Origin: Croceicoccus mobilis
Lineage (GTDB): Bacteria > Pseudomonadota > Alphaproteobacteria > Sphingomonadales > Sphingomonadaceae
Reading direction: 5' to 3'
Assembly: GCF_001661965.1 (NCBI RefSeq)
Contig: NZ_LYWZ01000023.1
Span: 62,001 to 126,000, forward strand
DNA: 64,000 nt
In this document: positions 3,550 through 35,323 of the stretch, one piece after another
Numbering within the stretch: the stretch's first letter is position 1
How the letters are laid out: every line of letters begins with the position of its first letter
Notes under the pieces: model-generated
Databases searched by the model: none
Seen by the model: only the letters and a program-made list of their open reading frames with translations
Told to the model about the DNA's origin: nothing
Translations under genes and position numbers: made by a program

Positions 3550-4941
3550 CTAAGCCTCGCGCCCCGGCACGATCAGGTTCAGCACCACCGCGATCACGGC
3601 AGCGGGCAGCACTCCCGATCCCAGCAGCACGCCCCATGTCTCTCCCGCATGGGACAGCGCCGCAGGCTCAAGCTGCAAGCCCAGCGACACCGACAGCGCA
3701 ATGCCGAAGATGAGCATGTTGCGCTGGCTCCAAGTCACCGATTGCAGGATCGACAGCGCCGCAGAGGCGACCATGCCGAACATCACGATGACCCCGCCGC
3801 CCAGCACCTCGATCGGGATGGTGGTAACGAGCGCGCCGATCTTCGGCACGAAGCCCGCAATGATCAGGAACACCGCGCCCACGGTGACGACATGGCGGCT
3901 CATCACCCCGGTAATCGCGATAAGGCCGACGTTCTGGCTGAAGCTGGTATTGGGCAATGCCCCGAAAATCGCGGCGAGGGCCGTGCCGAAGCCATCGGCC
4001 ATGGTCGCGCCTGAAAGCTCCTTGTCAGTTGCCTCGCGCCCCGCACCGCCTTCGCAAATGCCGGAAACGTCGCCCACCGTTTCGATGGCCGAAACGACTC
4101 CCATCAGGCAGAAACCGAGGATGGCCGACGCCGAAATGGCAAAGCCGAAACGAAACGGATCGGGCAACGCCACCCAGCCGACCTGCGCCACGGGATCGAG
4201 CGACACCCGGCCAAGTAATGCCGCCACGCCATAGCCCGCGATCAACCCGATCAGCACCGCCGCCGTCGCCCAGATGCCGCGCGCGAAAAAGCACAGGCCC
4301 AGCGTCACGAAGGCCACCGTCCCTGCCAGCATCCAGCCGATCCCCGCGCCATAATCAGGCCGGTCCGCCGGCAGTCCGCCAGCAGCATATTGCACCCCCA
4401 CCCGCATCAGCGAGAGGCCGATCATCAGCACCACCAACCCCGTCACCAAGGGCGGCAGCGCAAAGCGTATCTTCCCGACCACCAATGACAGCGACATGTG
4501 GAAGAGCCCGCCAAACAATGCCCCCGTAGTCAGCGCCGCCATGCCCGCCACGCCCTGCCCCGCGACAATGGGGATCATGATGGGCAGGAAGGCAAAGCTC
4601 GTCCCTTGCACGATCGGCAGGCGCGCGCCCATTGGCCCTGCGCCGATCGTCTGGAACAGCGTGGCGATCCCTGCGAACAGCATTGCCATCTGGATCATGT
4701 AGATCATCGGCGATGGATCGTCCGACCCGTACCCGAACCCTGCCGCACCCGCGACAATGATCGCAGGCGCAAGGTTTGACACGAACATCGCCAACACATG
4801 CTGGATGCCCAGCGGCACCGCGATGGCGAGGCCGGGGAAATATTCGGGATCGCGCGCCTGTTCGGGCGACATTATGCCGCGATAATCCTTGGCCGAGGGC
4901 GGGGTGCCGCCCTCCTCCAGCGTCTGGGCGAAATCGCTCAT
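3550..4941 (-). CDS. NCS2 family purine (xanthine/urate-type) permease
   Basis: The 463-residue membrane protein shows about 12-14 hydrophobic segments and NCS2 features: a QHVLAMF-type motif early (GIQHVLAMFVSN), the QGTSFAF half-helix, and a TxFSQN-like element (LPNTSFSQNVGLIAITGV). NCS2 proteins are proton-coupled nucleobase importers, and this subgroup usually carries xanthine, urate or uracil. Its start codon abuts the stop of the 8-oxoguanine deaminase gene, so the two are cotranscribed. That fits import of an oxidised purine or the export/import of xanthine and urate. Exact substrate cannot be fixed by reading. Confidence 0.88.
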   Translation of the reverse strand: MSDFAQTLEEGGTPPSAKDYRGIMSPEQARDPEYFPGLAIAVPLGIQHVLAMFVSNLAPAIIVAGAAGFGYGSDDPSPMIYMIQMAMLFAGIATLFQTIGAGPMGARLPIVQGTSFAFLPIMIPIVAGQGVAGMAALTTGALFGGLFHMSLSLVVGKIRFALPPLVTGLVVLMIGLSLMRVGVQYAAGGLPADRPDYGAGIGWMLAGTVAFVTLGLCFFARGIWATAAVLIGLIAGYGVAALLGRVSLDPVAQVGWVALPDPFRFGFAISASAILGFCLMGVVSAIETVGDVSGICEGGAGREATDKELSGATMADGFGTALAAIFGALPNTSFSQNVGLIAITGVMSRHVVTVGAVFLIIAGFVPKIGALVTTIPIEVLGGGVIVMFGMVASAALSILQSVTWSQRNMLIFGIALSVSLGLQLEPAALSHAGETWGVLLGSGVLPAAVIAVVLNLIVPGREA

Positions 4942-6300
4942 TCAGAACATCTCCATCAGGCGGGCGCGGGATCTGTTGGCGGCTTTCACAATGGCCTCTG
5001 CGTCCACCTGCGCCAGATGACCGGAGCGGACCGTCCAGCGCCCCTCCACCATGACGTCGCGCGCCTTTGGCGGCGGGCAGAGGGCGAGCGCGGCGATCGG
5101 GTCCCATGCGCCTGCCGTATCGACGCCGCCCATGTCCCAGACGGCGAGATCGGCACGCTTGCCGACCTCCAGCGATCCGCAGTCATAGCGTCCCAGAACC
5201 TGCGCCCCGCCGCGTGTCGCCAGCCACAGCGCCTCTCGCGGGTCGAAGCGGTCGGCACCATTCTCCACGCGCTGCAACAGCATGGCCTGCCGCGCCTCTT
5301 GCAGCAGATTGCCGCTGTCATTGCTGGCGCTGCCATCGACGCCTAAACCCACCGGCACACCCGCATCGCACATCGCCCGCACCGGCGCGATCCCGGAGCC
5401 AAGGCGGCAATTGGAACACGGACAATGCGCCACGCCGGTTTTCGTGCGGGCGAACAGGGCGATTTCGTCAGCGTCCAGTTGCACGCAATGGGCGTGCCAG
5501 ACATCATCGCCTGTCCAGCCCAGCTCTTGGGCATATTCACCCGGACGGCAGCCGAATTTTTCAATCGAGTAGCGAACATCATCCGCGTCCTCGGCCAGAT
5601 GGGTGTGCAGCATCACGCCCTTGTCACGCGCCAGCAGGGCGGATTCGCGCATCAGCTCGCGCGTCACCGAAAACGGCGAACAGGGCGCGACCGCGACGCG
5701 CAGCATGGCCCCATCGGACCCGTCGTGAAACCGGTCGATCACGCGGATCGTGTCGGCAAGGATCGCGTCCTCGTCCTCCACCACGGAATCGGGCGGCAGG
5801 CCGCCGTCGCTCTCGCCCAAGCTCATCGAACCGCGTGTGGCGTGAAAGCGCATGCCGGTCCCGGCGGCGGCATGGATCGTGTCGTCCAGCGTCACCCCGT
5901 CGGCGTAGATATAATGATGGTCGCTGCTCATCGTGCAGCCCGACAGGGCGAGTTCGGCCAGGCCCAGTTGCACGGCTGCGAACACGTCATCGGGCGTATA
6001 GGCCGCCCAGATCGGATAGAGACGCTTGAGCCAGCCGAACAGCGATGCGCTTTCGGCACCCGGCACGGCGCGCGTCAGGCTCTGGTAGAGATGGTGGTGC
6101 GTGTTGACGAGGCCGGGGGTGACGACACAGCCCGAAGCCTCGATCACCTCGTCCGCGCTCGCGATCTCTTTGGCGAAATCATCCGCGCCGCCAACGCCCG
6201 CGATCACGCCATCGCGCACCAGCAGCACGCCATCCGCGATCTCCCGGCGGGCATCGTCCATGCAGGCCAGCGTCGCCCCGCGAATGATCGTCAGCGGCAC
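4942..6300 (-). CDS. 8-oxoguanine deaminase (amidohydrolase superfamily)
   Basis: The 452-residue enzyme belongs to the TrzA/ATZ-like amidohydrolases. Metal and catalytic residues are visible: H68-x-H70 in NTHHHLYQSL, H234 in LHTHLAED, H271 in WHAHC and D322 in GVDGSASND. The segment LFGWLKRLYPIW and the wider pattern match the 8-oxoguanine deaminase group (the Pseudomonas aeruginosa PA0142 type), which converts 8-oxoguanine to urate and ammonia. That product would feed the urate pathway encoded from 15 to 35 kb. It is followed directly by the NCS2 permease gene and preceded by a NUP-family gene. Isocytosine or guanine deaminase activity is a possible alternative. Confidence 0.88.
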   Translation of the reverse strand: MPLTIIRGATLACMDDARREIADGVLLVRDGVIAGVGGADDFAKEIASADEVIEASGCVVTPGLVNTHHHLYQSLTRAVPGAESASLFGWLKRLYPIWAAYTPDDVFAAVQLGLAELALSGCTMSSDHHYIYADGVTLDDTIHAAAGTGMRFHATRGSMSLGESDGGLPPDSVVEDEDAILADTIRVIDRFHDGSDGAMLRVAVAPCSPFSVTRELMRESALLARDKGVMLHTHLAEDADDVRYSIEKFGCRPGEYAQELGWTGDDVWHAHCVQLDADEIALFARTKTGVAHCPCSNCRLGSGIAPVRAMCDAGVPVGLGVDGSASNDSGNLLQEARQAMLLQRVENGADRFDPREALWLATRGGAQVLGRYDCGSLEVGKRADLAVWDMGGVDTAGAWDPIAALALCPPPKARDVMVEGRWTVRSGHLAQVDAEAIVKAANRSRARLMEMF

Positions 6301-6310
6301 GCGGTCCCCC

Positions 6311-7420
6311 TCAGGGCGTGTTCTCGGCGTAATGGTCCCAATCGGAAAGGATCGTATCGACCACTTTCGAGCCGACGATATACAGGCTCTCGACCGATGC
6401 CTTCAGCCCGGCATAGCCCTCGTTTTCACCCAGCAGGTAGGTCGCGGCATCCACGCCCGGCGGGGGCATGGTGAAATTGCTGCCTGCGCGCAGCACCAGC
6501 ATGCGGTCCTTGTCGGCACGGCCAACGCGATCGAGGTAAGTCATCGCGGTCATCACGCCTGTATCCTCCATCGCGGAGGTCACGAATTCACCCTTCCCTT
6601 CGGTCCAGTAATCGACCCACTCATTGGCCCAGTCGGTCATCAGCTTGCCGTGCCAGAAGGTCATGGCGGCAAGCTGCTCGCCCTCCAGCACGAAAGGCGG
6701 CTTCTGCGCATTGGGATAGCCGGTGTAGTGGGAGCGCTCTTCGGCGATGGCCTCGTCGTCGGGAAGCTCGATGTCCTTGGTCAGCTCATAGGCCCAAGCG
6801 ACGAGCGAAGGGTTCACCTGGAACATCTCTCCACCCGAAGGATCGACAGGTGTGGTGCGGTCATTGGGCCCCTTGGTGTGGCGCGGGAAATAGCCGAACT
6901 TCCAGTCGGCCGGAATTTCACGCGGATCGATTTCGTGTGCGAGGTCGCCATCGACCAGATAGCGCGCCCATGCGGCGCTGCCGATGGATGCGTCTTCGGG
7001 GTCGATCCCGGCGATGCCGGCGACCAGCCAATAGCTTTGCGTCAGGTCGAAACGGTCATCGAGGCCCAGCGCCATGGTGGCGGAGGTGGAGCGCGCGGTG
7101 CCGATGCCGGTCACCATGCCCAGCACCTGCGTTTCGGGATTATAGTAGAGGTCGTGGAACGACTGCGGGAAAGGAATGCGCGTATCGAGCCCGCGGCGTT
7201 CCCGCCACAGCTGGAACTCGCCCGCGACATCGCCTTCGTCATCGCCGATCTCGAACAGCGAGACGATGACCATCTTCACCGGCAGCGGCGTTTCGCACGG
7301 GGCGGCGGGCTGGCAGGTTTCGAGCACCTTGGCCACGTCCTCTTCGGGCGTGGCATAGGCGGGCGTCGTAAGGGCGAAGAGGGCCGCGGCGGCGGCGATG
7401 GCGCGGGTAAGCCGCTTCAT
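6311..7420 (-). CDS. Secreted purine nucleoside permease (NUP) family protein
   Basis: The 369-residue protein has a Sec signal peptide (RAIAAAAALFALTTPAYA) and then the NUP family pattern: VKMVIVSLFEIG near residue 50, FHDLYYNPETQVLGMVTGIG, YWLVAGIAGIDPEDASIGS, and a C-terminal LVLRAGSNFTMPPPG. The family name comes from fungal nucleoside uptake, but this product has no transmembrane region after the signal. Its fold resembles nucleoside phosphorylases, so a periplasmic nucleoside-binding or nucleoside-cleaving role is more plausible. It lies between the TonB receptor and 8-oxoguanine deaminase genes, 10 bp from the latter. Confidence 0.82.
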   Translation of the reverse strand: MKRLTRAIAAAAALFALTTPAYATPEEDVAKVLETCQPAAPCETPLPVKMVIVSLFEIGDDEGDVAGEFQLWRERRGLDTRIPFPQSFHDLYYNPETQVLGMVTGIGTARSTSATMALGLDDRFDLTQSYWLVAGIAGIDPEDASIGSAAWARYLVDGDLAHEIDPREIPADWKFGYFPRHTKGPNDRTTPVDPSGGEMFQVNPSLVAWAYELTKDIELPDDEAIAEERSHYTGYPNAQKPPFVLEGEQLAAMTFWHGKLMTDWANEWVDYWTEGKGEFVTSAMEDTGVMTAMTYLDRVGRADKDRMLVLRAGSNFTMPPPGVDAATYLLGENEGYAGLKASVESLYIVGSKVVDTILSDWDHYAENTP

Positions 7421-7520: not shown

Positions 7521-9974
7521 TCAGAACTTGAAGACGAGCGATGCCTGATAGCTGCGGGGCTTTTCAGGCAGGGCGATCGTCGAGCCGAACAGCTCGGTGA
7601 AGTTCGCGCGGAAGTAATCCTCGTTCGTTGCGTTCTTCACGACGACGCGGAACAGCCACGGGCCGGTTTCATAGGTCGCGCCCACGTCCACCAGCGTATA
7701 GCCCGGCAGCTTCACCGCGCGCGACTGGCCCGAATAGACCGAATCGACGAAGGAAGCGGCGGCGTTCAGGGCCAGGCCGAAGTCGAACTTGTACGTGCCG
7801 GTGAGCGAGTACAGGTTCGTCGGGATACCGGCGCGGCGGCTTTCGGCCTTCGAGCTGATCGGGACGAGGCCGATCGGCTGACCGCCCAGATACAGCGTCG
7901 GATCCGACACGTTCACGAGGTCTTCGATACCGAAGAAGCTGAACAACACGCCATCGTTGAGACCGGTGAGGTTGAACACCTTGGTCCGCGTATAGGCGCC
8001 GGTCAGCAGCAGGTTGTCGGTGGGCGAGTAACGGAATTCCGCTTCGAGGCCCTTGGTCTCGACGGCCTGGTTCACCGTGATCGACTGCGAGGAGTAGTCG
8101 GTACGCTCCTGCTTGTAGACTGAGACGGCGGCATAGAGCGTGTCGCCCAGCCAGCTGCCCTTTACGCCGCCTTCATACAGCTTCGAGGCCGACAGCCAGG
8201 TACCGGCAACGAGGTTGTCGGGGTCAAGCTCTGCGCCCTGGCCCGCGATCACGACCGACTGACGCGCGGCGGTGACATAGGGGATCAGGCCGAAGGGCAG
8301 CTTGTACGACGCGCTGGCCGACCACGACCAGTCGCCGTCCTTGTCCTTGGCGCCCGCATAGCCCGGGTCCGATTCCATCTTGGGGATGTTGTAATAGGAT
8401 TCCCCGTCCAGCCAGTCGTAACGCGCGCCCAGCGTGATGTTGAGCCCGAAGTCGAAATCGAAATCGGCAAGGCCGGCCAGCGCGTAATCGGTGTAATTGC
8501 CCGACACATAGCTGGTGTAATTGCAGTCGCATTCGAGCGAGAGCAGGCGATCCGACAGCGGAGTATAGCCCGTGGTCAGGTCGACGCGGTGGAAATATTC
8601 GTAGTTGAAATCCTCGCCATGCTTGAAATCCGTGTAACGGATCGAAGGCGAGAACTGGAACGAGAACGTCCCCATGTCCGTCATCAGCTTCTTCGCGACG
8701 ACGAGCTTGTTTTCAAAGACATAGCTGTCGTGAAACTGCGAGAAGCCGTAGGCGTTGGTATTGTAGTTCTCGTAGCTGTCATAGAACATCTGGTTCTTGA
8801 TCTCGAGGTCGGCCGGACCTTCCCAGATGAAATCGGCATAGAGCGTGGTCGAGCGGTTATCGAGCCGGTCGTCCGTGCCGGTCAGCGTGTTCCGGCGGCT
8901 GAGCTTCGTCGTGCCGGTGTCGGTCAGCGCCAGTGCCGGATAGGTCGAGGTGAAGCACTCATCGGTGAACGCGGTTGCGAACGGGCTGAAATTGCCGCAG
9001 CCAAAGCCGCCGAAGATCGACAGGCCGCCATCGATCACCGCATTGATCTCACCCTGCGAAAGCTGGCCGTCGCCATCCATGTCGATGGGCTGCGCCGAAC
9101 CGGTGATATAGGTGCCGTTGTCGACGAGGTCCTGCGTCAGGCGGTTCCAGCCACCGTTCTGCTGGCCCTTGTAGTTCTGGTACATGCCGCCGAATTCAAG
9201 GCGCAGGTCAGGCGTGATGTCGGTATCGAACGAGCCCTGCAGAATGGTCTGCTTGGTGCTCATGTTGCGATAATACGAACCCGAATCCTCGACTTCAGCA
9301 TAAAGGCTGTAGCCGAACTCCTGGGCGCCGATGCTGCCCGGACCGCGAAGATTGGCCGACAGGACCATCTTTTCCCAGCTGCCGGTCGTGACCGAGACTT
9401 CGCCCTCGGGGCTGGAGAGGTACGAGCCGCCCTGCGCGCGGCCCGATTTGGGCACGAAGTTCATGTAGCCGCCGGTCTTCGACGGACCGAAGATCGGCGA
9501 GGCGGGGCCGCGCACGATGTCGATGCGCTCTGCCGCGGCGATCGGGGTGGGATAGTTGCCGGGGTTGTCGAGACGACGCACGCCGCGGAAATAGACTTCG
9601 CCCGGAGTGCCGCGAATGTCGAGCGCGCCGCCGACGCCGAAGAACGAGTTGGTGAAGGTGCCGGGCGTCTGCGCCATCAGGTCATAGATGTCGGTGATGC
9701 CGAAACGCTCCATCTGCTCGGAGCTGATCGACGAGGCCGAACGCGGCGTTTCCACCAGCGTCTTGTCGAAACCGAAGACCGAGCCGACGTCCTGCACCGG
9801 AAGAGCGCCCAAAGCGCCGGTCACGACGATTTCGCCGGTTTCCTCTTCCTCTTCCGCGTCCTGCGCCATGGCCGGCACGGTCAGCGCGGTGCAGGCCAGC
9901 AATGCGCCCGCAGCTGCCAGCATGCGGCTGCCCCGACGCTTATTCCCTTCAAATTCGATCGCAGTGAAATTCAT
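7521..9974 (-). CDS. TonB-dependent outer-membrane receptor (purine-locus associated)
   Basis: The 817-residue product starts with a signal peptide ending AMAQ (residue 38), an acidic linker DAEEEEET and a TonB-box-like GEIVVTG. The plug follows (about 60-180, with SSEQMERFGITDIYDLMAQTPGTF and IDIVRGPAS), then a long beta-barrel ending in phenylalanine (ASLVFKF), as expected for Omp85-recognised barrels. Start at 9974 is chosen because GGGGGA lies about 7 bases upstream; a second ATG at 9989 is possible. Residues 298-309 form a perfect EF-hand-like calcium loop inside the barrel region. Context suggests uptake of nucleosides, nucleotides or purines, but the substrate is inferred. Confidence 0.9.
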   Translation of the reverse strand: MNFTAIEFEGNKRRGSRMLAAAGALLACTALTVPAMAQDAEEEEETGEIVVTGALGALPVQDVGSVFGFDKTLVETPRSASSISSEQMERFGITDIYDLMAQTPGTFTNSFFGVGGALDIRGTPGEVYFRGVRRLDNPGNYPTPIAAAERIDIVRGPASPIFGPSKTGGYMNFVPKSGRAQGGSYLSSPEGEVSVTTGSWEKMVLSANLRGPGSIGAQEFGYSLYAEVEDSGSYYRNMSTKQTILQGSFDTDITPDLRLEFGGMYQNYKGQQNGGWNRLTQDLVDNGTYITGSAQPIDMDGDGQLSQGEINAVIDGGLSIFGGFGCGNFSPFATAFTDECFTSTYPALALTDTGTTKLSRRNTLTGTDDRLDNRSTTLYADFIWEGPADLEIKNQMFYDSYENYNTNAYGFSQFHDSYVFENKLVVAKKLMTDMGTFSFQFSPSIRYTDFKHGEDFNYEYFHRVDLTTGYTPLSDRLLSLECDCNYTSYVSGNYTDYALAGLADFDFDFGLNITLGARYDWLDGESYYNIPKMESDPGYAGAKDKDGDWSWSASASYKLPFGLIPYVTAARQSVVIAGQGAELDPDNLVAGTWLSASKLYEGGVKGSWLGDTLYAAVSVYKQERTDYSSQSITVNQAVETKGLEAEFRYSPTDNLLLTGAYTRTKVFNLTGLNDGVLFSFFGIEDLVNVSDPTLYLGGQPIGLVPISSKAESRRAGIPTNLYSLTGTYKFDFGLALNAAASFVDSVYSGQSRAVKLPGYTLVDVGATYETGPWLFRVVVKNATNEDYFRANFTELFGSTIALPEKPRSYQASLVFKF

Positions 9975-10091
9975 TTTGGGGTCCCCCATGAAACCGGCAG
10001 GGGGAAGTCTTTTCCCTTGCTGCCGGGCCTGATGTCCGTTGCCCGATTGTGCAGGCCCCCTCCCCGGGACGTGCTCGCACCTGCGATACAT

Positions 10092-10145: not shown

Positions 10146-11690
10146 CTACTCCGACCCGGCTTCGTATGCTGCGCCGGCAAAGCGCGCAGACGACCGTTCG
10201 AATTCCTCGAATTCTTGCTCCAATGCGAGTTGAAGGCGAGCCTTCTCGCTATTTGCTAATGCTGTTTTGCACATGCGAGATACGAATGTTGCGCTGCACG
10301 CGTCGATTGGCGTCCCTACGTTGCCGTCGCGCCACAGGCTGGTACCGGGCAGGAAAGCGTATTCCAACCCATTGCGCGAAACTTGCTTCATCGCGGCATA
10401 ATCGAATCCGTGTTCTGTGACCGCGCGCTCGTATTCGCCGGTGAGATCGGTGCGCAATATGCCCTGATCGTCAGTTGAAAGCGTCACCGGCACGCCAAAG
10501 CTGCGATAAAGATCGATGGGATGTTCATCCCCCTCGACCCCAAGGATGACGGCATTGCTGGTCAGGTTCACCTCGACCGCAATGCCCTCGCTCGCCATTC
10601 GGGCCAGAGTCGCGGGTGCGTCAGCCTCATAGGCGATGCCGGTGCCATGGCCGATACGCTCGGCGCCGCTGGCGATAGCCTTGGCCATATGGTCTTTCAT
10701 CGCGGCAGGCGGGACCAGCCCGAACGCCAGCTCTCCGGCGTGCATGGTGACATGCACATCGGGGTAGCGTTCCTCCAGCAGGCGGAACATCGCCATGTGG
10801 AGGTCATAGTCGCGCATCGCCACGGCCCAGTCCTCGGGCATGACGATATTCACGCCAACGAAACGCGGATCGGCATCGGACAGGGCAAAGGAGAACAGCA
10901 GCGAGCGAAACACCTGCTGCGGCGGCAAGGCGCGAAGTGCACTGCCCAGATAGCGGATGGCGACATCGCAGGCCGCCTCGGCACCCTCCGTGCCGCAGCC
11001 CAGCCCCGTGCGCGTCTCCGCTTCCTCGGCATCCAGTTCGCTGCGCGCGGCGGCGATGTGGGGTGCGATTGCCGGGATCTCACGGTCGAGCCATGCCGCC
11101 AGATCCGCTTCCCCCAGCGGATCGGCGGAAGCGCCCATGACATAGGGCCCCATCACGACCGGATTATGCATCAGTTCGAGATAGGTGAGATTGTCGCCCG
11201 CCGCCGTGCGCAGCGCGACCATCATCATTGGCGCGACGTTGTCACGCGCGACCATGCCGAACAGGTCGAAGCTCTTGAAGAACTGCGTGTGCCCGGTAAC
11301 CTCATCGCTATCCACCCCGGCCTGCCAGCCGCGGGTCGAAAGCCGGTCGATGAGCCGGGCATAGAGGAAGGGCCGCTCCGCCGCGATGCGCCCGATCTTG
11401 TCCGCGCCCTCGCAAGGAGCGGGGACGAGACCGAGCGTAGCGGGATCGGCGCAATAGCCTTCTGCCGCAGCCCAGCCGAGGTAGTCTTCCGCCGATGGCG
11501 TGCCGGAAAGGTGATTGTGCAGGTCCGCACCCTTGGGCATCGCCTGCAGGAACATGCGCAGCATCTGCGGTTCTTCGCGGATGGTGTCGAAGACTTTCGC
11601 CGCCTCGGCCTCGCTCGCGCTGTCGGCCATGGCGGCACTGGGCACGGCAAGCATCGCGCTGGTCATAAGGGCGGCAATGGCACGCCTCAC
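10146..11690 (-). CDS. Exported adenosine deaminase-like protein (ADGF type)
   Basis: The 514-residue protein has the adenosine/AMP deaminase catalytic set: DLHNHLSG (metal His pair), HAGE (His and catalytic Glu), RIGHG and STDDQG (metal and catalytic Asp). It is longer than cytosolic adenosine deaminases (about 350 residues) and has a signal peptide, RRAIAALMTSAMLAVPSAAMA, so it should act in the periplasm, turning adenosine to inosine. The start is uncertain: GTG at 11690 gives a clean signal peptide, TTG at 11756 would add 22 residues, and ATG at 11666 would shorten the signal. It is divergent from the LysR gene and upstream of the TonB receptor gene. Confidence 0.87.
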   Translation of the reverse strand: MRRAIAALMTSAMLAVPSAAMADSASEAEAAKVFDTIREEPQMLRMFLQAMPKGADLHNHLSGTPSAEDYLGWAAAEGYCADPATLGLVPAPCEGADKIGRIAAERPFLYARLIDRLSTRGWQAGVDSDEVTGHTQFFKSFDLFGMVARDNVAPMMMVALRTAAGDNLTYLELMHNPVVMGPYVMGASADPLGEADLAAWLDREIPAIAPHIAAARSELDAEEAETRTGLGCGTEGAEAACDVAIRYLGSALRALPPQQVFRSLLFSFALSDADPRFVGVNIVMPEDWAVAMRDYDLHMAMFRLLEERYPDVHVTMHAGELAFGLVPPAAMKDHMAKAIASGAERIGHGTGIAYEADAPATLARMASEGIAVEVNLTSNAVILGVEGDEHPIDLYRSFGVPVTLSTDDQGILRTDLTGEYERAVTEHGFDYAAMKQVSRNGLEYAFLPGTSLWRDGNVGTPIDACSATFVSRMCKTALANSEKARLQLALEQEFEEFERSSARFAGAAYEAGSE

Positions 11691-12957: not shown

Positions 12958-13057
12958 GCGATGGGCAAAACCGCAGCCCGGCAAATTGCCCCCGCCAGCC
13001 GCAGCCGATACTCTGCGAGGCGAATCTGATCACGCCGCCAGCAGGAGCGACAATCGC

Positions 13058-13606: not shown

Positions 13607-13646
13607 TACCCTCCCTCCCCTCCCTCTCGCGAAAGTAATCCTCCCC

Positions 13647-27700: not shown

Positions 27701-28937
27701 AGGTCTCTCCCAGACGTTCGATAAAGCGCAACATCACGGCCAGCGCGATGGCAGTATCCTCGGCCGTGACATGTTCGGCCGGATTATGGCTGATGCCGTC
27801 GGTGCAGCGGATGAAAAGCATGGCGGTGGGGCAAATCGCGGCAAGGTTCATTGCATCGTGCCCCGCGCCCGAAACAAGGCGGCGGACAGGCTGGCCCGCA
27901 TCCTCAAGCGCGGCATCCATCAGTTCCATCAACCCGGCATCGCAGGGGCTGGCGGGCAGGTCGTGGATCCGCTCGATGTCGCATTCCAGTTCGCGCGCGG
28001 CGGCGATTTCGGCCAGTCGGGCAAGAATCTCCTGCGCCACGCGGTCGCGGCGGTCTTCGTCGCCGGAACGCACGTCGACGGTAAAGCTGACCGCACCGGG
28101 AATGACATTCGCCGCGCCGGGTTTCGCCTCAAGCACGCCGACGGTGGCGACCGCATCGCCATCGTCATGCCGCGCCGCCTGCTCGACGGCCAGCACCATG
28201 GCCGCAGCGCCCGCCAACGCATCGCGGCGCAGACGCATCGCCGTGGTCCCTGCGTGTCCGGCCATGCCGCGCACCTCGATCCTGTAGCGGAGCTGGGCGG
28301 CGATCCCGGTCACCGTGCCCACGGCAAGGCCGTCGGCTTCCAGCACCGGCCCCTGCTCGATATGCGCTTCGAGATAGGCGATTAATTCTTCCGGCCTGCG
28401 CGCCGCATCCAGATAGCTTGCCGTATCGACACCGCTGTCGGCCAGCGCCACGCCTGCGCGGTCGGCTATTTCCAGCGCTTGCCGATCCAGCGTCCCTGCA
28501 ACCGCCCGGCTGGTCAGCATGGCGGCGGGAAAGCGCGATCCTTCCTCGTCTCCAAAGGCATAGACCTCGATCGCGAAAGGCATGCGCTTGCCTGCGCCGT
28601 GCAGCGCTGCGACGCATTCGATGCCGAGCATGATGCCCAGCGGCCCGTCGTAATGCCCGCCATCGCGCACGCTATCGATATGACTGGCAATCATCAGTGC
28701 GGGCGCGCCGGGCGTGGTGCCCTCGTACCGCCCGACGAGATTGGCCGCGGGATCGCGGCGGACAAGCATGCCCGCTTCCTGCATCCAGCCGCCCACTTCG
28801 CGCAGCGCCGCGTCATATGCAGGCGTCAGATAGCCGCGATATAGCCCGCCCTCCATGTCGGAGAACGGTGCGACGCCGAGGAGGTCGCACCGGTCGACGG
28901 CGCGCTTGCCGCCATGCATTATCTCCGCGCTCACCAT
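27693..28937 (-). CDS. allC: Allantoate amidohydrolase-like M20 family enzyme
   Basis: The 414-residue protein has the metal-site pattern of M20 carbamoylases and allantoate amidohydrolases: ASHIDSVRDGGHYDGPLGIMLGIE, GDEEGSRFP, AHIEQGPVLE, GHAGTTAMRLRRDAL, SGAGHDAMN and a late HNPAEH. Allantoate amidohydrolase makes ureidoglycine plus ammonia and CO2, which is the missing step between puuE and pucG. An N-carbamoyl amino acid hydrolase or ureidoglycolase would look similar, so the name depends on context. ATG 28937 overlaps the hpxW stop by seven bases. Confidence 0.86.
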   Translation of the reverse strand: MVSAEIMHGGKRAVDRCDLLGVAPFSDMEGGLYRGYLTPAYDAALREVGGWMQEAGMLVRRDPAANLVGRYEGTTPGAPALMIASHIDSVRDGGHYDGPLGIMLGIECVAALHGAGKRMPFAIEVYAFGDEEGSRFPAAMLTSRAVAGTLDRQALEIADRAGVALADSGVDTASYLDAARRPEELIAYLEAHIEQGPVLEADGLAVGTVTGIAAQLRYRIEVRGMAGHAGTTAMRLRRDALAGAAAMVLAVEQAARHDDGDAVATVGVLEAKPGAANVIPGAVSFTVDVRSGDEDRRDRVAQEILARLAEIAAARELECDIERIHDLPASPCDAGLMELMDAALEDAGQPVRRLVSGAGHDAMNLAAICPTAMLFIRCTDGISHNPAEHVTAEDTAIALAVMLRFIERLGETCV

Positions 28938-30508
28938 GCGATTGCCGCCCCGTCGCTGCGCGGATCGCTGGCGCCGATGAAGGTGCCGTCGGCCAGACGC
29001 ACGATTGCGCCCGCATGGCCCATGGTCGCGGTCAGCGGGCCGATACGCTCGACCTCATGCCCTGCCACGGCCAGCCCGGCGTAAAGCTCGGGCGCGAAAC
29101 CGTCTTCCAGCTTCAAGGATGTCGACTGCTCACCCCATGTCCGACCCAAGAGCCAGCGCGGCGCGCTGATCGCTGCCTGCAGATCCTGCCCATATCGCGC
29201 ATAGCGGGTGAAGATCGCCGCCTGCGTCTGCGGCTGGCCTTCGCCGCCCATGGTGCCATAGGCCATCACGCGGCCGTCATCGAACACCGCCAGCGCCGGG
29301 TTCAGCGTATGAAACGGCTTGCGCCCCGGCTTCAGCGCGTTCCAACCGTCTGCGGCCAGCCGGAACGAACTGCCCCGGTTTTGCCAGGTGATGCCCGTTT
29401 GCGGCAGCACCAATCCCGAACCGAATTCGTGATAGGTCGACTGGATCGCGGACACCACGCGCCCCTCGCCATCGGCGGCTGCGAACCAGCATGTATCGCC
29501 CCATTGCGAAGGCTGCGGCCATGCCAGCGCCTTGGCCGGATCGATCTGCGCCGCCAGCGCATCCAGCGCTGCGGGATCATCCAGCAGCCCCTGAAAATCG
29601 TAATCGGTATGGGCAAGGTCGCCGACATGCGCGTCGCGCAACAAAAACGCCTGCTTCGTCGCCTCCACCAGCCCGTGGACATGGGCGAAGCCATCAGCCT
29701 CGTCAGCGGTCAGCCGGTCGAACAGAGCGAGGATAAGGAGCGAGGCAAAGCCCTGCGTCGGCGGTACCGAATTATAGAGCCGCGCGCCGGTGATCGGCAC
29801 CGTCAGCGGCGGGCAAGTCGTGGCTTTGTGCATGGCGAGATCGGCCGCGGCGACCGGGCTACCCAGTTCCGCCAGGTCGGCAGCAATCTTCTCGGCCAGT
29901 GCGCCGGTATAGAACCCGTCCAGCCCATCCTCCGCCAGAGCGCGCAAGGTTGCGGCCAGCGCAGGCTGGCGCAGCGTATCGCCTTCGCGAAGGGGGCGGC
30001 CTTCGGGTTCGAAATTCGCGGCATAGGCACCCGGCTGGACGCGCAATTCGCCGCCCTTGCCCTCGGCGATGCCAGCGCCGCCAGCCGTCACCGTCACGCC
30101 GCTTTCGGCATGGGCGATGGCATCGCGCAAAAGGCGCGAGAGGGGCAGCGTTCCCGTGCCGCTGGCCAGCACCGCTTCCCATGCGGAAATCGTGCCAGCC
30201 ACCGTGTTCGCCGCCAGCGGCCCACGGCTAGGCACCAAGTCGTGCCCGGCATAAAGCGCGAGATCCGCCGCAGCCGCCGCGCCGCCGCAGCCATTGACGG
30301 AATGGATGCGCCCATCTGGTTCGCGCACCAGCCAGAACCCGTCGCCGCCGATCCCCGTCATATGCGGATAGACCACCGCCAGCGTGGCCGCGATGGCGAC
30401 GCTCGCCTCTACCGCCGTGCCGCCATCGGCCAGCACGTCGCAGCCCGCCTGCGCCGCCAGGTGATGCGGGGCGGTGCAGATGCCATGCGTGCCTTGGACG
30501 GTTTCCAT
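28931..30508 (-). CDS. hpxW: Gamma-glutamyltransferase-like amidohydrolase, probable oxamate amidohydrolase HpxW
   Basis: The 525-residue Ntn-hydrolase precursor matches the gamma-glutamyltransferase family. Autocleavage is expected before Thr339 (WGDTCWFAAADGEGRVVSAIQ), leaving a large and a small subunit. It has no signal peptide, unlike classical periplasmic GGT. Details such as GIGGDGFWLVRE and YHEFGSGLVLPQTGI match the HpxW type, which hydrolyses oxamate to oxalate and ammonia in Klebsiella urate degradation. The presence of hpxZ, an AtzE-like amidase and pucG supports that assignment. It lies 12 bp after the nucleosidase-like gene. Confidence 0.85.
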   Translation of the reverse strand: METVQGTHGICTAPHHLAAQAGCDVLADGGTAVEASVAIAATLAVVYPHMTGIGGDGFWLVREPDGRIHSVNGCGGAAAAADLALYAGHDLVPSRGPLAANTVAGTISAWEAVLASGTGTLPLSRLLRDAIAHAESGVTVTAGGAGIAEGKGGELRVQPGAYAANFEPEGRPLREGDTLRQPALAATLRALAEDGLDGFYTGALAEKIAADLAELGSPVAAADLAMHKATTCPPLTVPITGARLYNSVPPTQGFASLLILALFDRLTADEADGFAHVHGLVEATKQAFLLRDAHVGDLAHTDYDFQGLLDDPAALDALAAQIDPAKALAWPQPSQWGDTCWFAAADGEGRVVSAIQSTYHEFGSGLVLPQTGITWQNRGSSFRLAADGWNALKPGRKPFHTLNPALAVFDDGRVMAYGTMGGEGQPQTQAAIFTRYARYGQDLQAAISAPRWLLGRTWGEQSTSLKLEDGFAPELYAGLAVAGHEVERIGPLTATMGHAGAIVRLADGTFIGASDPRSDGAAIAW

Positions 30509-30520: not shown

Positions 30521-31474
30521 TCAATCAGGCAGATCGGCAAGGAATGCGCGCACGACATGGGCGGAATTGACCGACGCCAGCGCCATGAAGGTTTCCATCT
30601 GGTTTTCGCCCTCGTCCCCGCCGGCAAGGTCGGACAGGCTGCGGAACGCGATGGTGGGCACGCGGTTCGCATAAGCGACCTGCACCACGGCTGCACTTTC
30701 CATGTCGAGCACGCGGGCATTCCACGCGGTCTGCAGATATTCGCGGAATTCCTTGTTGTCCGCAAACACGCCCGCGCTGACCCCGGTGCCGCCGACGACG
30801 ATCCTGGGTTCCTCGTTCAGGCAGTCACCGTTTTCTTGGGTAGGCTTTTCAAGGCAGCGTTTGAGCGCCGTATCCGCTGCGACCTCGCGCGCCACGGCCA
30901 GCAGGTCCGGATCGACCGCCATGCGGTACTGCCGCGTCGGTGCTTCCTCGGCATTGCCCACGCGCACGCCGCGCGGGAACATCATGCCCCAGTTTGGCGG
31001 CGCGATGTCGTCAACCGGCTCGGGCACCTTCCACCCGTCCGCAGTCTGTCGCGCAAAGGACACTTCGAGATATTGCGCCCAGTCCTCGGCCACGATGACA
31101 TCGCCGATGGAAAGATCGGGATCGACCCCGCCCGCGATCCCCGAAAACACGATGCGCGAAACGTTGAAACGGTCGATGACAAGCTGGGTGTTCATGGCAG
31201 CGTTCACCATGCTCACCCCGCTGGTCATCAATATGATCGGCTTGCCTTCGAGCGTGCCGGTAAGGAATTTGAGCCCGTTGATCGCATATTCGGTCGGCTC
31301 CTGCACGGCTGGGGCAAGCGCGTCCCATTCAGGAGAGAACGCGGTCATCACCACGGTTCGCGGCGTGGCATCCAGCTTTGCGCCGGCCTCGCTGGCCGCA
31401 TGGTGATTTGCCAGGGCAGGCGTGGCCGTGCCAAGCGCCAGTGCCAGCGGGGCAAGCAGGGTCAAGGCGCGCAT
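30521..31474 (-). CDS. Exported nucleoside phosphorylase/nucleosidase-like protein (PNP_UDP family)
   Basis: The 317-residue protein has a clear signal peptide (RALTLLAPLALALGTATPALA) and a nucleoside phosphorylase/MTA-SAH nucleosidase fold: VVMTAFSPEWDAL, IVFSGIAGGVDPDLSIGDVIVAEDW, VLDMESAAVVQVAYANRVPTIAFRSLSDLAGG. The ribose-contacting MES and the catalytic Asp region (SLSD) are present. An exported member could cleave nucleosides in the periplasm before import by AzgA, whose gene immediately precedes it with a one-base overlap. A set of cysteines near residues 228-240 (CLEKPTQENGDC) could form a disulfide, in line with export. Confidence 0.84.
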   Translation of the reverse strand: MRALTLLAPLALALGTATPALANHHAASEAGAKLDATPRTVVMTAFSPEWDALAPAVQEPTEYAINGLKFLTGTLEGKPIILMTSGVSMVNAAMNTQLVIDRFNVSRIVFSGIAGGVDPDLSIGDVIVAEDWAQYLEVSFARQTADGWKVPEPVDDIAPPNWGMMFPRGVRVGNAEEAPTRQYRMAVDPDLLAVAREVAADTALKRCLEKPTQENGDCLNEEPRIVVGGTGVSAGVFADNKEFREYLQTAWNARVLDMESAAVVQVAYANRVPTIAFRSLSDLAGGDEGENQMETFMALASVNSAHVVRAFLADLPD

Positions 31475-32850
31475 CAGGCGGCTCCCATCCAGACGAAGCG
31501 GATCACGAACAATGCGGCGAGCACCAGCAGGAACCAGTCCGTCCTGGTAATCGTGCCGCGTACCAGCTTCAGCAGCGCATGCGCCGTGATGCCAAAGGCC
31601 AGCCCGTTCGCGATCGAAAACGTCAGCGGGATCATCGCCACGGTCAGGAACGCCGGGATGGCCGAGAGCGGATCTTCCCACTCCACCTCTGCCAGCGGCA
31701 GCAGCATCAGCCCGCCCACGATGATCAGCGCAGGCGCCGTCGCCGACAGCGGAATAAGCTGCGCATAAGGCGCAACGAACATCATGGCGAGGAAGAGCAC
31801 GCCCGTCACGATGGCCGTGAGCCCCGTGCGCCCGCCCGCCTGCACACCGGCGGCGCTTTCGACATAGCTGGTCACCGTGCTGGTGCCCGCCATAGAACCC
31901 ACGACTGTCGCGGTCGCATCGGTAAAGAGGATGCGGTTGAGGCGCGGGATCTTGCCGTCGGGGGTCATCAGCCCGGCGCGCTTCGTCACCGCGACCAAAG
32001 TGCCGATATTGTCGAACAGGTCGACGAAGAGGAACACGAAGATGATCTCGACAATGCCCAGCCCCGCCGCGCCGTCGAAACCGAACACGCTGCCAAGGTC
32101 CAGCTGGAAGATCGTGGCGGTCATCGCTTCCAGCGAATAGGGTTCGGGGTTGATCGTCACCATGCCGAACGCCCAGCCCAATACGGTGGTGGCGACGATG
32201 CCGATCAGCATCGCGCCCTTCACGTTCCAGACCGACAGCGCCGCGATCAGCAGCAGGCCGAAAATGGCGAGCGCCGCGCCCGGTTCCTTCAGATCGCCCA
32301 GCGCCACGAAGGTCGCCGGATTGGCAACGATGATGCCTGCGTCCTTGAAGCCGATGAAGCCGATGAACAGGCCAATGCCGCCCGCGACGGCTGCGAACAG
32401 ATAGTTCGGGATGGCCGAAACGATCAGCTGGCGAATGCCGGTCAGCGTCAGCAGGAAAAACGCGATACCCGAAACAAATACACAGCCCAGCGCCGTCTGC
32501 CAGGGCACGCCCATCTGCTGCACCACGGTGAAGGAGAAATAGGCGTTGAGGCCCATCCCCGGCGCCATGGCCAGCGGAGTATTGCTGGTGAAACCCATCA
32601 GGATCGAGGCGAAGGCCGCCGCAAAGCAGGTCGCCGCCGCCACCGCCGCGATGGGCATGCCCGCCGCGCCCAGAATCGCGGGATTGACCAGCACGATATA
32701 GGCCATGGTGAGGAAGGTGGTGATGCCCGCCAGCACTTCCGTGCGCACATTGGTGCCGCGTGACGCCAGCTCGAACATGCGTTCCAGTCTGCTGTCGGTT
32801 GCGGCTGCGGGCGGTGCCCCTGTCGGCATGGTCGCTTCGGTCTCGCTCAC
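31474..32850 (-). CDS. AzgA-type adenine/guanine/hypoxanthine permease
   Basis: The 458-residue protein belongs to the AzgA branch of nucleobase transporters: TEVLAGITTFLTMAYIVLVNPAIL near the start, SNTPLAMAPGMGLNAYFSF, FVFLFVDLFDNIGTLVAV and the conserved GTSTVTSYVESAAGV. About 12-14 transmembrane segments are visible. AzgA proteins take up adenine, guanine and hypoxanthine with protons, complementing the xanthine/urate-type NCS2 gene at 3.5 kb. Start is GTG 32850, overlapping the amidase stop (GTGA). Confidence 0.92.
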   Translation of the reverse strand: MSETEATMPTGAPPAAATDSRLERMFELASRGTNVRTEVLAGITTFLTMAYIVLVNPAILGAAGMPIAAVAAATCFAAAFASILMGFTSNTPLAMAPGMGLNAYFSFTVVQQMGVPWQTALGCVFVSGIAFFLLTLTGIRQLIVSAIPNYLFAAVAGGIGLFIGFIGFKDAGIIVANPATFVALGDLKEPGAALAIFGLLLIAALSVWNVKGAMLIGIVATTVLGWAFGMVTINPEPYSLEAMTATIFQLDLGSVFGFDGAAGLGIVEIIFVFLFVDLFDNIGTLVAVTKRAGLMTPDGKIPRLNRILFTDATATVVGSMAGTSTVTSYVESAAGVQAGGRTGLTAIVTGVLFLAMMFVAPYAQLIPLSATAPALIIVGGLMLLPLAEVEWEDPLSAIPAFLTVAMIPLTFSIANGLAFGITAHALLKLVRGTITRTDWFLLVLAALFVIRFVWMGAA

Positions 32851-34187
32851 GCAGTTACCCCCTCTTGCGCCGATGTCGGCACGATTGATCCGATGATGCC
32901 CGCAGCCTCAAGCGTGCGGGCATAGGCAAACAGCAGCCCCTCCGATCCGGGCTTGCCGATAAGCTGCAGGCCCAGCGGCAGTTCGCCGGGCCGCTTCAAC
33001 GGCACCGCCAGCGAAGGCCAGCCGGTGAAAGTGATGGGCTGGGTATGGATGCCCAGATCCGCCCGCGCCGCCGACATGGCGCCGTCGATCATGATGCGCG
33101 GATCGTCGACCGGCGGCGCAGTGCATGGGGTCGCGGGGGCGAGGATCACGTCGTAGTTCTCCAGCGCCTCGGCAATCTGGGCGCGGAAAGCGTCGCGATA
33201 TTGATAGGCTTCGTCCAAGAGGCCCTGCGGCAGCAACGCGCCCGCGATCAGCCGGTCGCGGACCTGCGGGTCGAACTTCATCGCCTTCGATGCCAGCGCC
33301 TCGCGGTGGAGCGCCCCGCCCTCACCCGCAGTGATCAGAAACGCCGCCGAACGGGCGCGGGCGATATCGGGCAGTTCGACCAGCGGCGCATCTTTTGCCA
33401 GCGTGTCGATCGCGGCGATTTGCGCCGGGTCGACATTTTCGCGGAAGCGCCCGCCGAACCGGGCCAGACGCGGCGTAATACGCGGCTCGCCAAACGGCTC
33501 TCCCGCCAGCACGCCGCAGACCAGCGCCATGTCTTCCATGCCCAAAGTGAAAGGCCCGATGTCGTCGAAGCTTTCCGCAAAGGGGAACACGCCTGCCATC
33601 GGCAGGCCGTCATGGGTGGGTTTCAGCCCATAGATGCCAGTCAGGCTCGCCGGAACGCGGATCGATCCATTGGTGTCGGACCCCAGCGTAAAGGGCAGCA
33701 ATCCCGCCGCCACCATCGCTGCGCTGCCGCCCGAAGAACCACCGGCAAGCCGGTCGGCATCGTGCGGATTGCGGGTGGTGCCGTGCTTTGCATTGATGGT
33801 CGCAAAGCCATAGGCGAACTCGTCCATGTTGAGCGTTGCCACCAGCACCGCGCCCGCCGCATTCAGCCGCCTTATCGCCTCGGCATCCTTTGCCGCACCG
33901 GGCGCATCGCAATAGATGGCCGAGCCTGCCGTGGTGGGCAGGCCCTTCACGTCGAACAAATCCTTTACCCCATAGGGCACGCCTGCCAGCGGGCCGGGAT
34001 CTTCGCCTGCCGCTATCTTAGCATCGACGGCATCGGCCTCGTCGCGGGCGCGGGCAGCCAGCAGGCGCGTGATCGCCACCAGCGGATCGGCCTTGATCGT
34101 GATCGCTGCCAGCGTTTCTTCCAGCACCTCGCGCGCCTTGACGCGGCCGGCGCGGACATCGGCGGCGATCCGGGTCGCGGGGTTCAC
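32847..34187 (-). CDS. AtzE/HpxY-like amidase (amidase signature family), probable oxalurate step
   Basis: The 446-residue protein has the amidase-signature triad: Lys75 (GVPYGVKDLFDV), the cis-Ser in AGGSSGGSAA (residues 148-157) and nucleophile Ser175 (GSDTNGSIRVPASL). It resembles AtzE, which works with the small protein AtzG, and HpxY, which works with HpxX. The operon also has hpxZ and hpxW, so cleavage of oxalurate is the likely role. No AtzG/HpxX-like gene is found next to it: the preceding gene ends inside its GTG start (GTGA). Allophanate hydrolase or aryl amidase activity cannot be excluded. Confidence 0.82.
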   Translation of the reverse strand: MNPATRIAADVRAGRVKAREVLEETLAAITIKADPLVAITRLLAARARDEADAVDAKIAAGEDPGPLAGVPYGVKDLFDVKGLPTTAGSAIYCDAPGAAKDAEAIRRLNAAGAVLVATLNMDEFAYGFATINAKHGTTRNPHDADRLAGGSSGGSAAMVAAGLLPFTLGSDTNGSIRVPASLTGIYGLKPTHDGLPMAGVFPFAESFDDIGPFTLGMEDMALVCGVLAGEPFGEPRITPRLARFGGRFRENVDPAQIAAIDTLAKDAPLVELPDIARARSAAFLITAGEGGALHREALASKAMKFDPQVRDRLIAGALLPQGLLDEAYQYRDAFRAQIAEALENYDVILAPATPCTAPPVDDPRIMIDGAMSAARADLGIHTQPITFTGWPSLAVPLKRPGELPLGLQLIGKPGSEGLLFAYARTLEAAGIIGSIVPTSAQEGVTA

Positions 34188-35323
34188 GGGCGCTCTCCCC
34201 GCAGCGTCGCGGCATGGCGGGACAGCAAGGCGAGATTGCTCTCGACCCCGGCCTCGCACTCCGCCGGAATCGCAATCCCGCGCGCCTTCGCGGCAGCGGC
34301 GATTTCGTCAGCCCCGTGCGGGATCGTGTCGCCCTTGGGAGCGTCCAACACTTCGCCCTGTTTCGCGAACCGCCCTGCCAGCCATGCGCAAACGAACAGC
34401 TGCAACTGGTGGAAGATCATCAGCGGGATCACCACCATGCCGACCTGCGCCGGGGCGAACAGCGCGCCTGCCATCGGCACGCCCGATGCCAGCGATTTCT
34501 TCGATCCGCAGAACAGGAGGACGATAAAATCCTCTCGCGGCAGGCCCGCGATGCGGGCGACCACCACATTGACCACCATGACAATGGCAAGGATCACCGC
34601 GCTGACCACCAGCAGCAACAGCAGGTCGGCGATGCCCAGCGAATTCCAGATGCCATCGACGACAGCCGCGCTGAAGGCGGAATAGACGACCATCAGGATC
34701 GACCCGCGATCGACCGGCTGCAGCATCTTCTTGTGCTTGTCGACGAAGCTGCCGATCAGCGGCCGCAGGAAATGCCCGGCAAGGAAAGGCACCAGCAATT
34801 GCAGCGTGATCGACTGCACCGCGCCCCAGTCGAAACCCTGCCCCGTCTTGCTCGACGCGATGAACAGCCCGACCAGCAGCGGCGTGATGAAAATGCCAAG
34901 AAAATTGGAGATCGAGGCCCCGCACACCGCCGCCGCGACATTGCCGCGCGCGATTGCGGTAAAGGCGACCGACGATTGCACGGTCGAAGGCAACAGGGTG
35001 AGAAACAGGACGCCTGTGACCAGCGCCGGATCCATGATCCCTTTCAGTGCCGGATCGATGGCAAGTCCCGTCAGCGGGAACAGCACATAGGTCGAAGCCA
35101 GCGCCAGCAGGTGCAGCTTGAGCTTTCCCAGACCCTGCATGATCGCCTGCCGCGACAGCTTTGCGCCCTGCAGGAAGAACAGGAGCGCGATGGCGAGATC
35201 GGCCAGCACCTCGAACACGCTGGCGAACGCGCCGCGCGCAGGCAGCAGCGATGCCGCCGTCACGACCCCGACCAGCCAGAGCAGGAACGGGTCGACGTTA
35301 GGTATGGTAAAGCCCCGCCGCAT
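34184..35323 (-). CDS. YfeH/SBF-like transporter (bile acid:sodium symporter superfamily), first gene of the purine run
   Basis: The 379-residue protein has about 10 hydrophobic segments and the SBF-like pattern: VLADLAIALLFFLQGAKLS, FLTLLPSTVQSSVAFTAIARGN and LLFCGSKKSLASGVPMA. Superfamily members move organic anions with sodium. Substrates for this branch are poorly defined. As the first gene of the purine operon it may import or export allantoin, allantoate, oxalurate or oxalate. ATG 35323 is preceded by AAAGGG; a longer open frame begins before the candidate operator and is not favoured. Confidence 0.85.
   Translation of the reverse strand: MRRGFTIPNVDPFLLWLVGVVTAASLLPARGAFASVFEVLADLAIALLFFLQGAKLSRQAIMQGLGKLKLHLLALASTYVLFPLTGLAIDPALKGIMDPALVTGVLFLTLLPSTVQSSVAFTAIARGNVAAAVCGASISNFLGIFITPLLVGLFIASSKTGQGFDWGAVQSITLQLLVPFLAGHFLRPLIGSFVDKHKKMLQPVDRGSILMVVYSAFSAAVVDGIWNSLGIADLLLLLVVSAVILAIVMVVNVVVARIAGLPREDFIVLLFCGSKKSLASGVPMAGALFAPAQVGMVVIPLMIFHQLQLFVCAWLAGRFAKQGEVLDAPKGDTIPHGADEIAAAAKARGIAIPAECEAGVESNLALLSRHAATLRGERP

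Follow-up and report, generated by a model that had tools for sequence, protein, structure and literature searches.

A purine-use locus of Croceicoccus mobilis with a predicted HpxX subunit fused to an SBF_like transporter

The 64,000-nucleotide stretch of Croceicoccus mobilis DNA analyzed here (the window) carries a locus that probably constitutes one regulon, under the probable control of a LysR-type regulator, for aerobic purine use by the Hpx route. In this locus the predicted oxalurate amidase HpxY would assemble on the inner membrane at an SBF_like transporter that bears its partner, HpxX, as a C-terminal domain; the activities, the chemistry of HpxZ, the assembly and the cargo are predictions from sequence. 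The window lies within contig C16 of a 4.2 Mb genome (completeness 100, contamination 1.31), and its genes were called by codon-usage scoring together with NCBIfam, Pfam and PDB-sequence searches. The purine-to-oxalate pathway itself is of a known kind. As far as the literature search goes, the transporter-fused HpxX, its evolutionary series and a conserved element shared by two gene runs are new; titles and abstract openings of the open literature held no SBF-AtzG or SBF-HpxX fusion, a weak negative, as subscription papers and preprints fell outside the search.

Gene content and the predicted route to oxalate

The main operon (35323-14595, minus strand) comprises 19 genes, the first encoding SBF_like-HpxX and the last a DUF4269 protein. 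With the chosen start codons its junctions measure -8 to +22 bp; codon scoring would alternatively place the UraD start 39 bp, and the DUF4269 start 66 bp, further in. This spacing, and a gene order that is kept in other genomes, make chance clustering very unlikely. The genes are listed below, with scores given against model cut-offs where two numbers appear; export, here and in the second run, was judged by eye from the N-termini.

34184..35323, minus: SBF_like (PF13593) 10-helix transporter with C-terminal AtzG-like HpxX domain (tail about residues 335-379, 34184-34321)
32847..34187, minus: HpxY, AtzE-family amidase, predicted oxalurate amidase (NCBIfam 530.3 vs 461 bits in a longer reading from 34259; PDB 6c62, E 1.8e-99; amidase motifs)
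31474..32850, minus: AzgA-like purine base permease, Xan_ur_permease (PF00860, E 6e-46)
30521..31474, minus: PNP/MTAN-like nucleoside-cleaving protein, predicted exported (PF01048, E 2.7e-41)
28931..30508, minus: HpxW, oxamate amidohydrolase-like N-terminal nucleophile (Ntn) hydrolase (PDB 5hft best in both chains; T339 corresponds to residue 1 of 5hft chain B)
27693..28937, minus: AllC-like allantoate amidohydrolase (NF006775, 578.7 vs 479 bits)
26459..27700, minus: ureidoglycine-glyoxylate aminotransferase, HpxJ/PucG (PDB 3nnk, E 2.6e-145, then 3isl (PucG), E 3.4e-127)
25560..26462, minus: allantoinase PuuE (TIGR03212, 499.9 vs 424.6 bits)
25183..25563, minus: HpxZ, AtzH-like, with Tyr19, Arg43 and Arg69 (NF033625, 153.3 vs 135; alignments to AtzH 6bjt and 6d63)
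24731..25183, minus: OHCU decarboxylase UraD, start perhaps 25144 (TIGR03164, 182.7 vs 96.25)
24393..24734, minus: HIU hydrolase UraH (PF00576, E 2.6e-32)
23188..24393, minus: membrane urate oxidase PuuD with cytochrome c domain, ATG at 24393 (PF06181, E 7e-127; CTECH motif)
21773..23191, minus: XdhA (TIGR02963, 579.5 vs 467)
19477..21750, minus: XdhB (TIGR02965, 1182 vs 849.5)
18563..19480, minus: XdhC (TIGR02964, 259.9 vs 161.6)
17247..18560, minus: guanine deaminase (NF006679, 569 vs 351)
16234..17250, minus: adenine/adenosine deaminase (NCBIfam adenosine deaminase, 530.4 vs 419; best PDB 3ou8, E 4e-116)
15125..16237, minus: nucleoside hydrolase, IU_nuc_hydro, predicted exported (PF01156, E 2.4e-53)
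14595..15125, minus: DUF4269 protein, start perhaps 15059 (PF14091, E 1.8e-46)

For all families named in the initial annotation, profile or PDB-sequence searches gave matches within 3550-35323. PucG/HpxJ, HpxW, the NCS2 permease, the exported deaminase- and nucleosidase-like proteins and the receptor were named through PDB or Pfam, their NCBIfam hits being below cut-off or absent. The protein called an adenine deaminase there has the NCBIfam label adenosine deaminase; its best PDB match, 3ou8, is presumably the adenine deaminase PA0148. The AtzE-like amidase and HpxZ had also been recognized, but the fusion of HpxX to SBF_like and the kinship of HpxXYZ with AtzGEH had been missed: the gene at 34184-35323, within the annotated range, was left unnamed and encodes the SBF_like protein with its AtzG-like tail.

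In the proposed route, the TonB-dependent receptor and periplasmic proteins would admit and cleave nucleosides, and the permeases would import the bases, oxidized ones included, which the deaminases and XdhABC would convert to urate. PuuD, in which both the Urate_ox_N membrane part and a cytochrome c CxxCH motif (CTECH) are present, would act with UraH, UraD, PuuE and the AllC-like enzyme to take urate to ureidoglycine. The HpxJ/PucG enzyme would then transfer the ureidoglycine amino group to glyoxylate, yielding glycine and oxalurate. By the expected chemistry of the whole route, 3/4 of the ring nitrogens would be released as ammonia and 1/4 as glycine, with none as urea.

Such a connected route, which the initial annotation had proposed, is a well-supported prediction, given the gene content, the order found conserved when gene content was compared with related genomes, the element shared by both runs and the lack of matches to competing exits. 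That both ends of the pathway sit in one locus is true and not unusual, as the late genes also stand together in the majority of the 80 named loci compared here (the best 80 of 325 confirmed HpxY loci). Genes for the HpxJ/PucG-type aminotransferase, HpxW, HpxY, HpxX and HpxZ all lie in one cluster in the window.

Ureidoglycine is labile (PMC4016543), and it might instead decay or be converted to ureidoglycolate and on to glyoxylate and urea, with the hpx genes serving other amides. This exit is considered very unlikely. The genome yielded no match at E<=0.001 to AllA (ureidoglycolate lyase), AllE/UGHY (ureidoglycine aminohydrolase) or AllG, in searches with one control each over the cut-off (for AllA and AllG from E. 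coli only) that did not extend to ureidoglycolate dehydrogenase, AllF or AllH; urease alpha likewise gave no match in the genome, with a positive control. These absences fit the oxalurate branch and argue against ureidoglycolate, the outcome that the initial annotation had set against its own route. In addition, the best matches of the aminotransferase are 3nnk and PucG, and 5hft, which we take to be Klebsiella HpxW, an oxamate amidohydrolase, is the best match of HpxW in both chains, with T339 aligned to the first residue of the 5hft beta chain. HpxW is cited as an oxamate amidohydrolase in PMC5270733.

Degradation of oxalate in this genome was rejected as a candidate, as both tested families failed: the oxalyl-CoA decarboxylase model reached 187.8 and 171.1 bits against a cut-off of 739.4, and bicupin oxalate decarboxylase gave no match, in a search that did not include formyl-CoA transferase and others. 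With neither family passing its cut-off, oxalate is probably the end product and may be excreted.

PuuD with cytochrome c is linked to UraH and UraD, as in the PuuD-type urate clusters of PMC4562309, but the operon here runs on to oxalate. For the oxalurate step E. coli instead employs AllFGH (PMC11326118), and hpxY is named oxalurate amidohydrolase in the text and oxamate carbamoyltransferase in a legend of PMC12625717, so its naming is not settled. The late enzymes resemble those of the Klebsiella hpx pathway (3nnk and 5hft are the best PDB matches, and the HpxZ family scores over its cut-off). In Klebsiella urate is oxidized by HpxO, whereas here PuuD would do so; HpxX is fused to SBF_like, and a receptor and exported enzymes are placed in the regulon.

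The last steps were modeled on the AtzEG-AtzH system of Pseudomonas sp. ADP. The nearest PDB relative of HpxY is 6c62, labelled biuret hydrolase and presumably AtzE, and HpxZ aligns with AtzH such that Tyr19, Arg43 and Arg69 correspond to AtzH Tyr22, Arg46 and Arg73, with a spacing of 24 for the first pair in both. AtzE, which deaminates 1-carboxybiuret in cyanuric acid degradation, is insoluble unless its non-catalytic partner AtzG is present; AtzH, a presumed decarboxylating amidohydrolase that requires Tyr22 and Arg46, speeds ammonia release (PMC6219798). The present system differs in its predicted substrate (oxalurate, not 1-carboxybiuret), in the separation of hpxZ from hpxY and in the fusion of the small subunit to a transporter. 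It is proposed, by analogy, that HpxXY would hydrolyze the terminal amide of oxalurate to give N-carboxyoxamate, that HpxZ would aid its decarboxylation to oxamate, and that HpxW would convert oxamate to oxalate. The analogy thus suggests a concrete chemistry for HpxXYZ, from oxalurate to oxamate. It may also supply a use for the enterobacterial atzG-atzE-atzH clusters, which adjoin gamma-glutamyl transferase, lie near transaminase and allantoate amidohydrolase genes, and have a role that PMC6219798 leaves open; these clusters can be read as hpx genes.

Weighing against a fixed role for HpxZ, within the stretches compared an HpxZ homologue was found in only 4/26 Acetobacteraceae loci (L105, L109, L111, L112), which suggests that the passage from HpxXY to HpxW can sometimes do without HpxZ. 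HpxW was not seen in L105, L109, L111, L112 and L113 alone of these 26. The two look mutually exclusive across the Acetobacteraceae loci (L087-L120): 21 have HpxW without HpxZ, and L113 has neither. L038 and L040 each have an HpxZ-like gene between two different AtzE/HpxY-like amidase genes, with no other locus genes in 4.3 kb.

Identity and history of the fused HpxX domain

A stand-alone hpxX is missing from the main operon, which opens with a gene for an SBF_like protein (PF13593, E 2e-94) with about 55 extra residues. The transporter part matches PF13593 over its full length and has 10 helices and the ASBT (bile-acid symporter) fold; the positive-inside pattern and an AlphaFold/ASBT structure match (a VIA-align comparison over residues 6-331, the transporter part only) place the tail on the cytoplasmic side. 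In 20 relatives, the SBF homologues at other sites (21 loci) stop shortly past the last helix. Read from its homologies and position, the tail is HpxX, the AtzG-type partner of HpxY, as a predicted cytoplasmic domain.

This identification draws on several comparisons. Alignment of the fused tails with stand-alone HpxX gave an hhalign probability of 98.8%, and matches to PF13318 at E<=0.1 were obtained for 24/26 fused tails (best 2.5e-7) and 19/23 stand-alone HpxX. Alignments A1 and A2 were made without L025, the twin of L043, and A3 holds the 23 stand-alone HpxX outside the fused clade; the HpxX motif filter missed visible HpxX genes, mostly in acetobacters. In related loci that lack the transporter, tblastn found a short tail-homologous gene at the same place before hpxY: the tail shares 44-62% identity over 43-49 residues with the stand-alone genes of L047, L054, L068, L069, L071 and L074, the last at 62% over 45 residues (E 6e-8).

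Several results count against this identification. The window tail alone scored 15.5 bits against PF13318 (cut-off 24; E 0.02), the C-terminal EPAxxYxP stretch seen in acetobacter HpxX is missing from the fused tails, and AtzG was not among the PDB matches of the tail profile, the best of which was a ferredoxin at E 0.025; the AtzG claim accordingly rests on Pfam, the stand-alone homologues and position. The tail could then be an unrelated two-helix extension, with HpxY working partnerless. PF13318 gave no other AtzG match in the genome, although the controls of that search were silent, so it is uninformative. Set against the hhalign result, the PF13318 matches of 24/26 tails and the stand-alone homologues at the same position, an unrelated extension is scarcely credible. 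A ferredoxin-like tail was rejected: PF00111 matched the window tail only (E 0.065-0.069), and the PDB ferredoxin matches were weak.

By analogy with AtzG, HpxX would be an obligate non-catalytic subunit of HpxY. Because HpxX is here a cytoplasmic domain of the transporter, the expected place of HpxY assembly is the inner membrane, at the transporter, and the oxalurate amidase is likely membrane-bound. The protein differs from the BASS/ASBT and SBF_like (PF13593) families in its C-terminal enzyme-subunit domain and its setting in a purine regulon. Two further SBF_like matches in the genome are weak (29.2 and 28.9 bits).

The nearest relatives of HpxY, among the best 80 loci in named genomes, are from Novosphingobium and Sphingobium, and HpxY is patchy, with 16/298 family genomes positive at E<=1e-90. 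The full SBF-HpxX fusion occurs in 24/80 loci, a count that leaves L083 (an 88-residue reading) outside. SBF was matched at E<=1e-85 in 88/397 family genomes; among the SBF matches listed, four extend past query residue 370, namely the window and three others, each of the three directly before hpxY. The fused SBFs form one clade, with 98 SH-aLRT in one tree and 100/99 in another (16 fused rows including the window, 12 purine-linked, 21 other). On an HpxY tree of 52 loci and the window, 10 changes between fused and not fused were counted (9-11 over a bootstrap that had not settled; 6 forced by starred branches); a second HpxY tree, which leaves out L025, L026, L032, L033, L034, L038, L039, L040 and 20 Acetobacteraceae loci, gave 11. 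One fused clade combined with about 10 tree changes suggests a single fusion followed by repeated transporter loss, and the history reads as one fusion and then roughly 9-10 losses in which HpxX was kept.

A likely pre-fusion starting point is seen in L154, where the order is receptor, LysR, SBF, hpxX, hpxY and the rest, and the SBF stop and hpxX start overlap as ATGA. The SBF of L154 belongs to a group (99/96) that is sister to the fused clade, the two joining at 96/92; the other members of the group are SBFs beside adenine deaminase and phosphoribosyltransferase (L132-L134), beside AzgA (L135) and without such neighbors (L130, L131, L138). At the other end of the series, L041, L052 and L083 retain an apparent remnant of the last helix, which matches at 41-44% over 85-86 residues. 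This natural series of pre-fusion, fused and transporter-less forms offers a model for how an enzyme subunit joins a membrane protein.

Some points tell against this history and against a necessary role of the transporter. Many forks of the HpxY tree are weak and gene transfer is possible, so the loss count is rough. Loci that retain the pathway have dropped the transporter part many times over, which implies that the transporter is not essential. The SBF of G007 (L003; L123, 9891-10976) lies inside the fused clade without a tail, is the closest tail-less SBF to that of the window, and has no nearby locus genes except a weak 53-residue PucG match. It follows genes that read by eye as ethanolamine ammonia-lyase eutBC, yet it has the conserved element described below, at 51.3.

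The pre-fusion overlap raises the question of whether the fusion was accidental, a frameshift having joined overlapping genes with HpxX functioning as before and no special role gained. A small indel could fuse an ATGA overlap, and the transporter is often lost. The fusion nevertheless persists in Novosphingobium, Sphingobium and Sphingomonas, and its invariant columns fall mostly within the transporter, with some in the tail as well, which suggests that selection still acts on both parts; an accident of this kind is judged unlikely. A typical sphingomonad fusion is also borne by L073, a contig titled Actinobacteria bacterium 21-64-8, which is perhaps mis-binned.

Cargo of the transporter and its coupling to hydrolysis

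The human carrier SLC10A7 is a member of the SBF_like family, for which we know of no proven substrate. SLC10A7 was called an orphan carrier in PMC7190670 (2020). A first guess at the cargo of the C. mobilis protein is a small purine-derived acid, with oxalurate moving in or oxalate or oxamate moving out. As the pathway to which the transporter is tied offers few candidate substrates, the question could be tested with few compounds. The SBF_like carrier might form a machine with the enzyme, moving a purine-derived acid and keeping the oxalurate amidase at its inner opening by means of the built-in obligate subunit; this is rather improbable, and if true it would give SBF_like its first substrate class and provide a rare example of a secondary carrier joined to a subunit that is essential to an enzyme. 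True coupling of transport to oxalurate hydrolysis, taken by itself, is a tentative and somewhat doubtful proposition.

The neighbors of unfused relatives bear on this question. Homologues of locus genes lie within 1.5 kb in 9/24 unfused loci (L132, L133, L134, L135, L136, L144, L146, L150, L153), from five genera, where the 24 (L130-L153) are the best unfused loci among the matches listed and a neighbor match in L152 (8-oxoguanine-deaminase-like, 30%) was left out of the count. SBF also occurs unfused within hpx loci (L035, L101 with its twin L034, L116 and L154). A purine link of SBF everywhere was rejected, as 0/21 loci (L003-L023) had another locus gene. Speaking against a purine cargo, a Pfam survey of 20 neighbors from 11/15 of the loci without a counted neighbor found them mixed (histidine kinase, TauD, isochorismatase, carboxylesterase).

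Alternatively, the transporter may serve only as a tether, anchoring the amidase or carrying an unrelated substrate, with transport not coupled to hydrolysis. The roughly 9-10 transporter losses with HpxX kept, the varied neighbors of unfused relatives, and a lone hydrophobic stretch before HpxX in L071 and in the longest readings of L076 and L035 are in keeping with it. However, most stand-alone HpxX show no preceding helix by a simple hydropathy window, so tethering appears dispensable as well, and the unfused SBFs in hpx loci and the 9/24 relatives beside locus-gene homologues also speak against it. A tether without coupling is a serious possibility, held with less than even confidence. In L071, and in L076 and L035 if the longest reading applies, HpxX is possibly membrane-anchored without a transporter.

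Regulation, the second run and flanking genes

A conserved element of about 50 bp precedes the main operon, with the consensus CATTTTTGCAACGATCCGTTCCGATCATTGCGTTTGATCGATAGGGGGGA. A search pattern written from the letters of the window matches there exactly by construction; the independent test was a position weight matrix (PWM) built with the window excluded, for which 27 other loci supplied 26 distinct sites. The PWM found two high-scoring sites in the window, one ahead of each run:

35343..35392, minus: conserved element copy 1 (PWM 67.5), ending 19 bp before the first start codon of the operon
11946..11995, minus: conserved element copy 2 (PWM 40.1), between the second run and the divergent LysR gene

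The best unrelated site in the window scored -8.8, and five mononucleotide shuffles gave at most -12.3. The element (score at least 15) is present in 44/80 named loci, 27 of which supplied the matrix, and in 43/46 of the loci L041-L086, compared with 0/26 Acetobacteraceae loci; hpx loci without it are L047, L084, L093 and L101. A second site adjoins LysR in the Novosphingobium loci L066 (23.1) and L078 (17.9), and in L154 sites of 37.3 and 28.7 flank the LysR homologue. L066 and L078 also carry as a single row the genes for LysR, exported deaminase, receptor, NUP, 8-oxoguanine deaminase, permease, SBF fusion and the rest.

The second run (11666-3550, minus strand) has five genes separated by 156, 100, 10 and 0 bp:

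10146..11666, minus: adenosine-deaminase-like protein, predicted exported (PF00962, E 4.8e-26)
7521..9989, minus: TonB-dependent receptor (PF00593, PF07715; best NCBIfam a siderophore-receptor model, 133 vs 223.5, below cut-off)
6311..7420, minus: NUP-family protein, predicted exported (PF06516, E 9e-114)
4942..6300, minus: 8-oxoguanine deaminase (NF006055, 680.7 vs 532 bits)
3550..4941, minus: NCS2 xanthine-type permease (TIGR03173, 387.4 bits, under the cut-off of 414.15)

One element ahead of each run supports both runs as one regulon, which to judge from the sites is most likely under the LysR-type regulator. Two points weigh against that assignment: that LysR binds the element is inferred, and an Rrf2-family regulator gene (window 35436-35885), directly before the main operon, lies nearer to copy 1. 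The Rrf2-family protein is therefore a rival candidate for control of the operon.

Between the runs, the plus-strand genes at 11968-14614 encode LysR, phosphoribosyltransferase, LOG-like and glyoxalase-family proteins:

11968..12957, plus: LysR-type regulator, candidate regulator of both runs, start perhaps 12031 (PF00126, PF03466)
13058..13606, plus: phosphoribosyltransferase (PF00156, E 6e-18)

To the right of the locus, window 37744-62141 holds housekeeping genes: cytochrome c1 and b, lgt, glnD, glutamyl/glutaminyl-tRNA synthetase, NAD synthase, a GGDEF-EAL protein, rpoC and rpoB. The phosphoribosyltransferase and LOG-like pair (window 13058-14225) recurs beside unfused SBF genes in L136 and L144, and is perhaps a salvage module tied to the SBF transporter.

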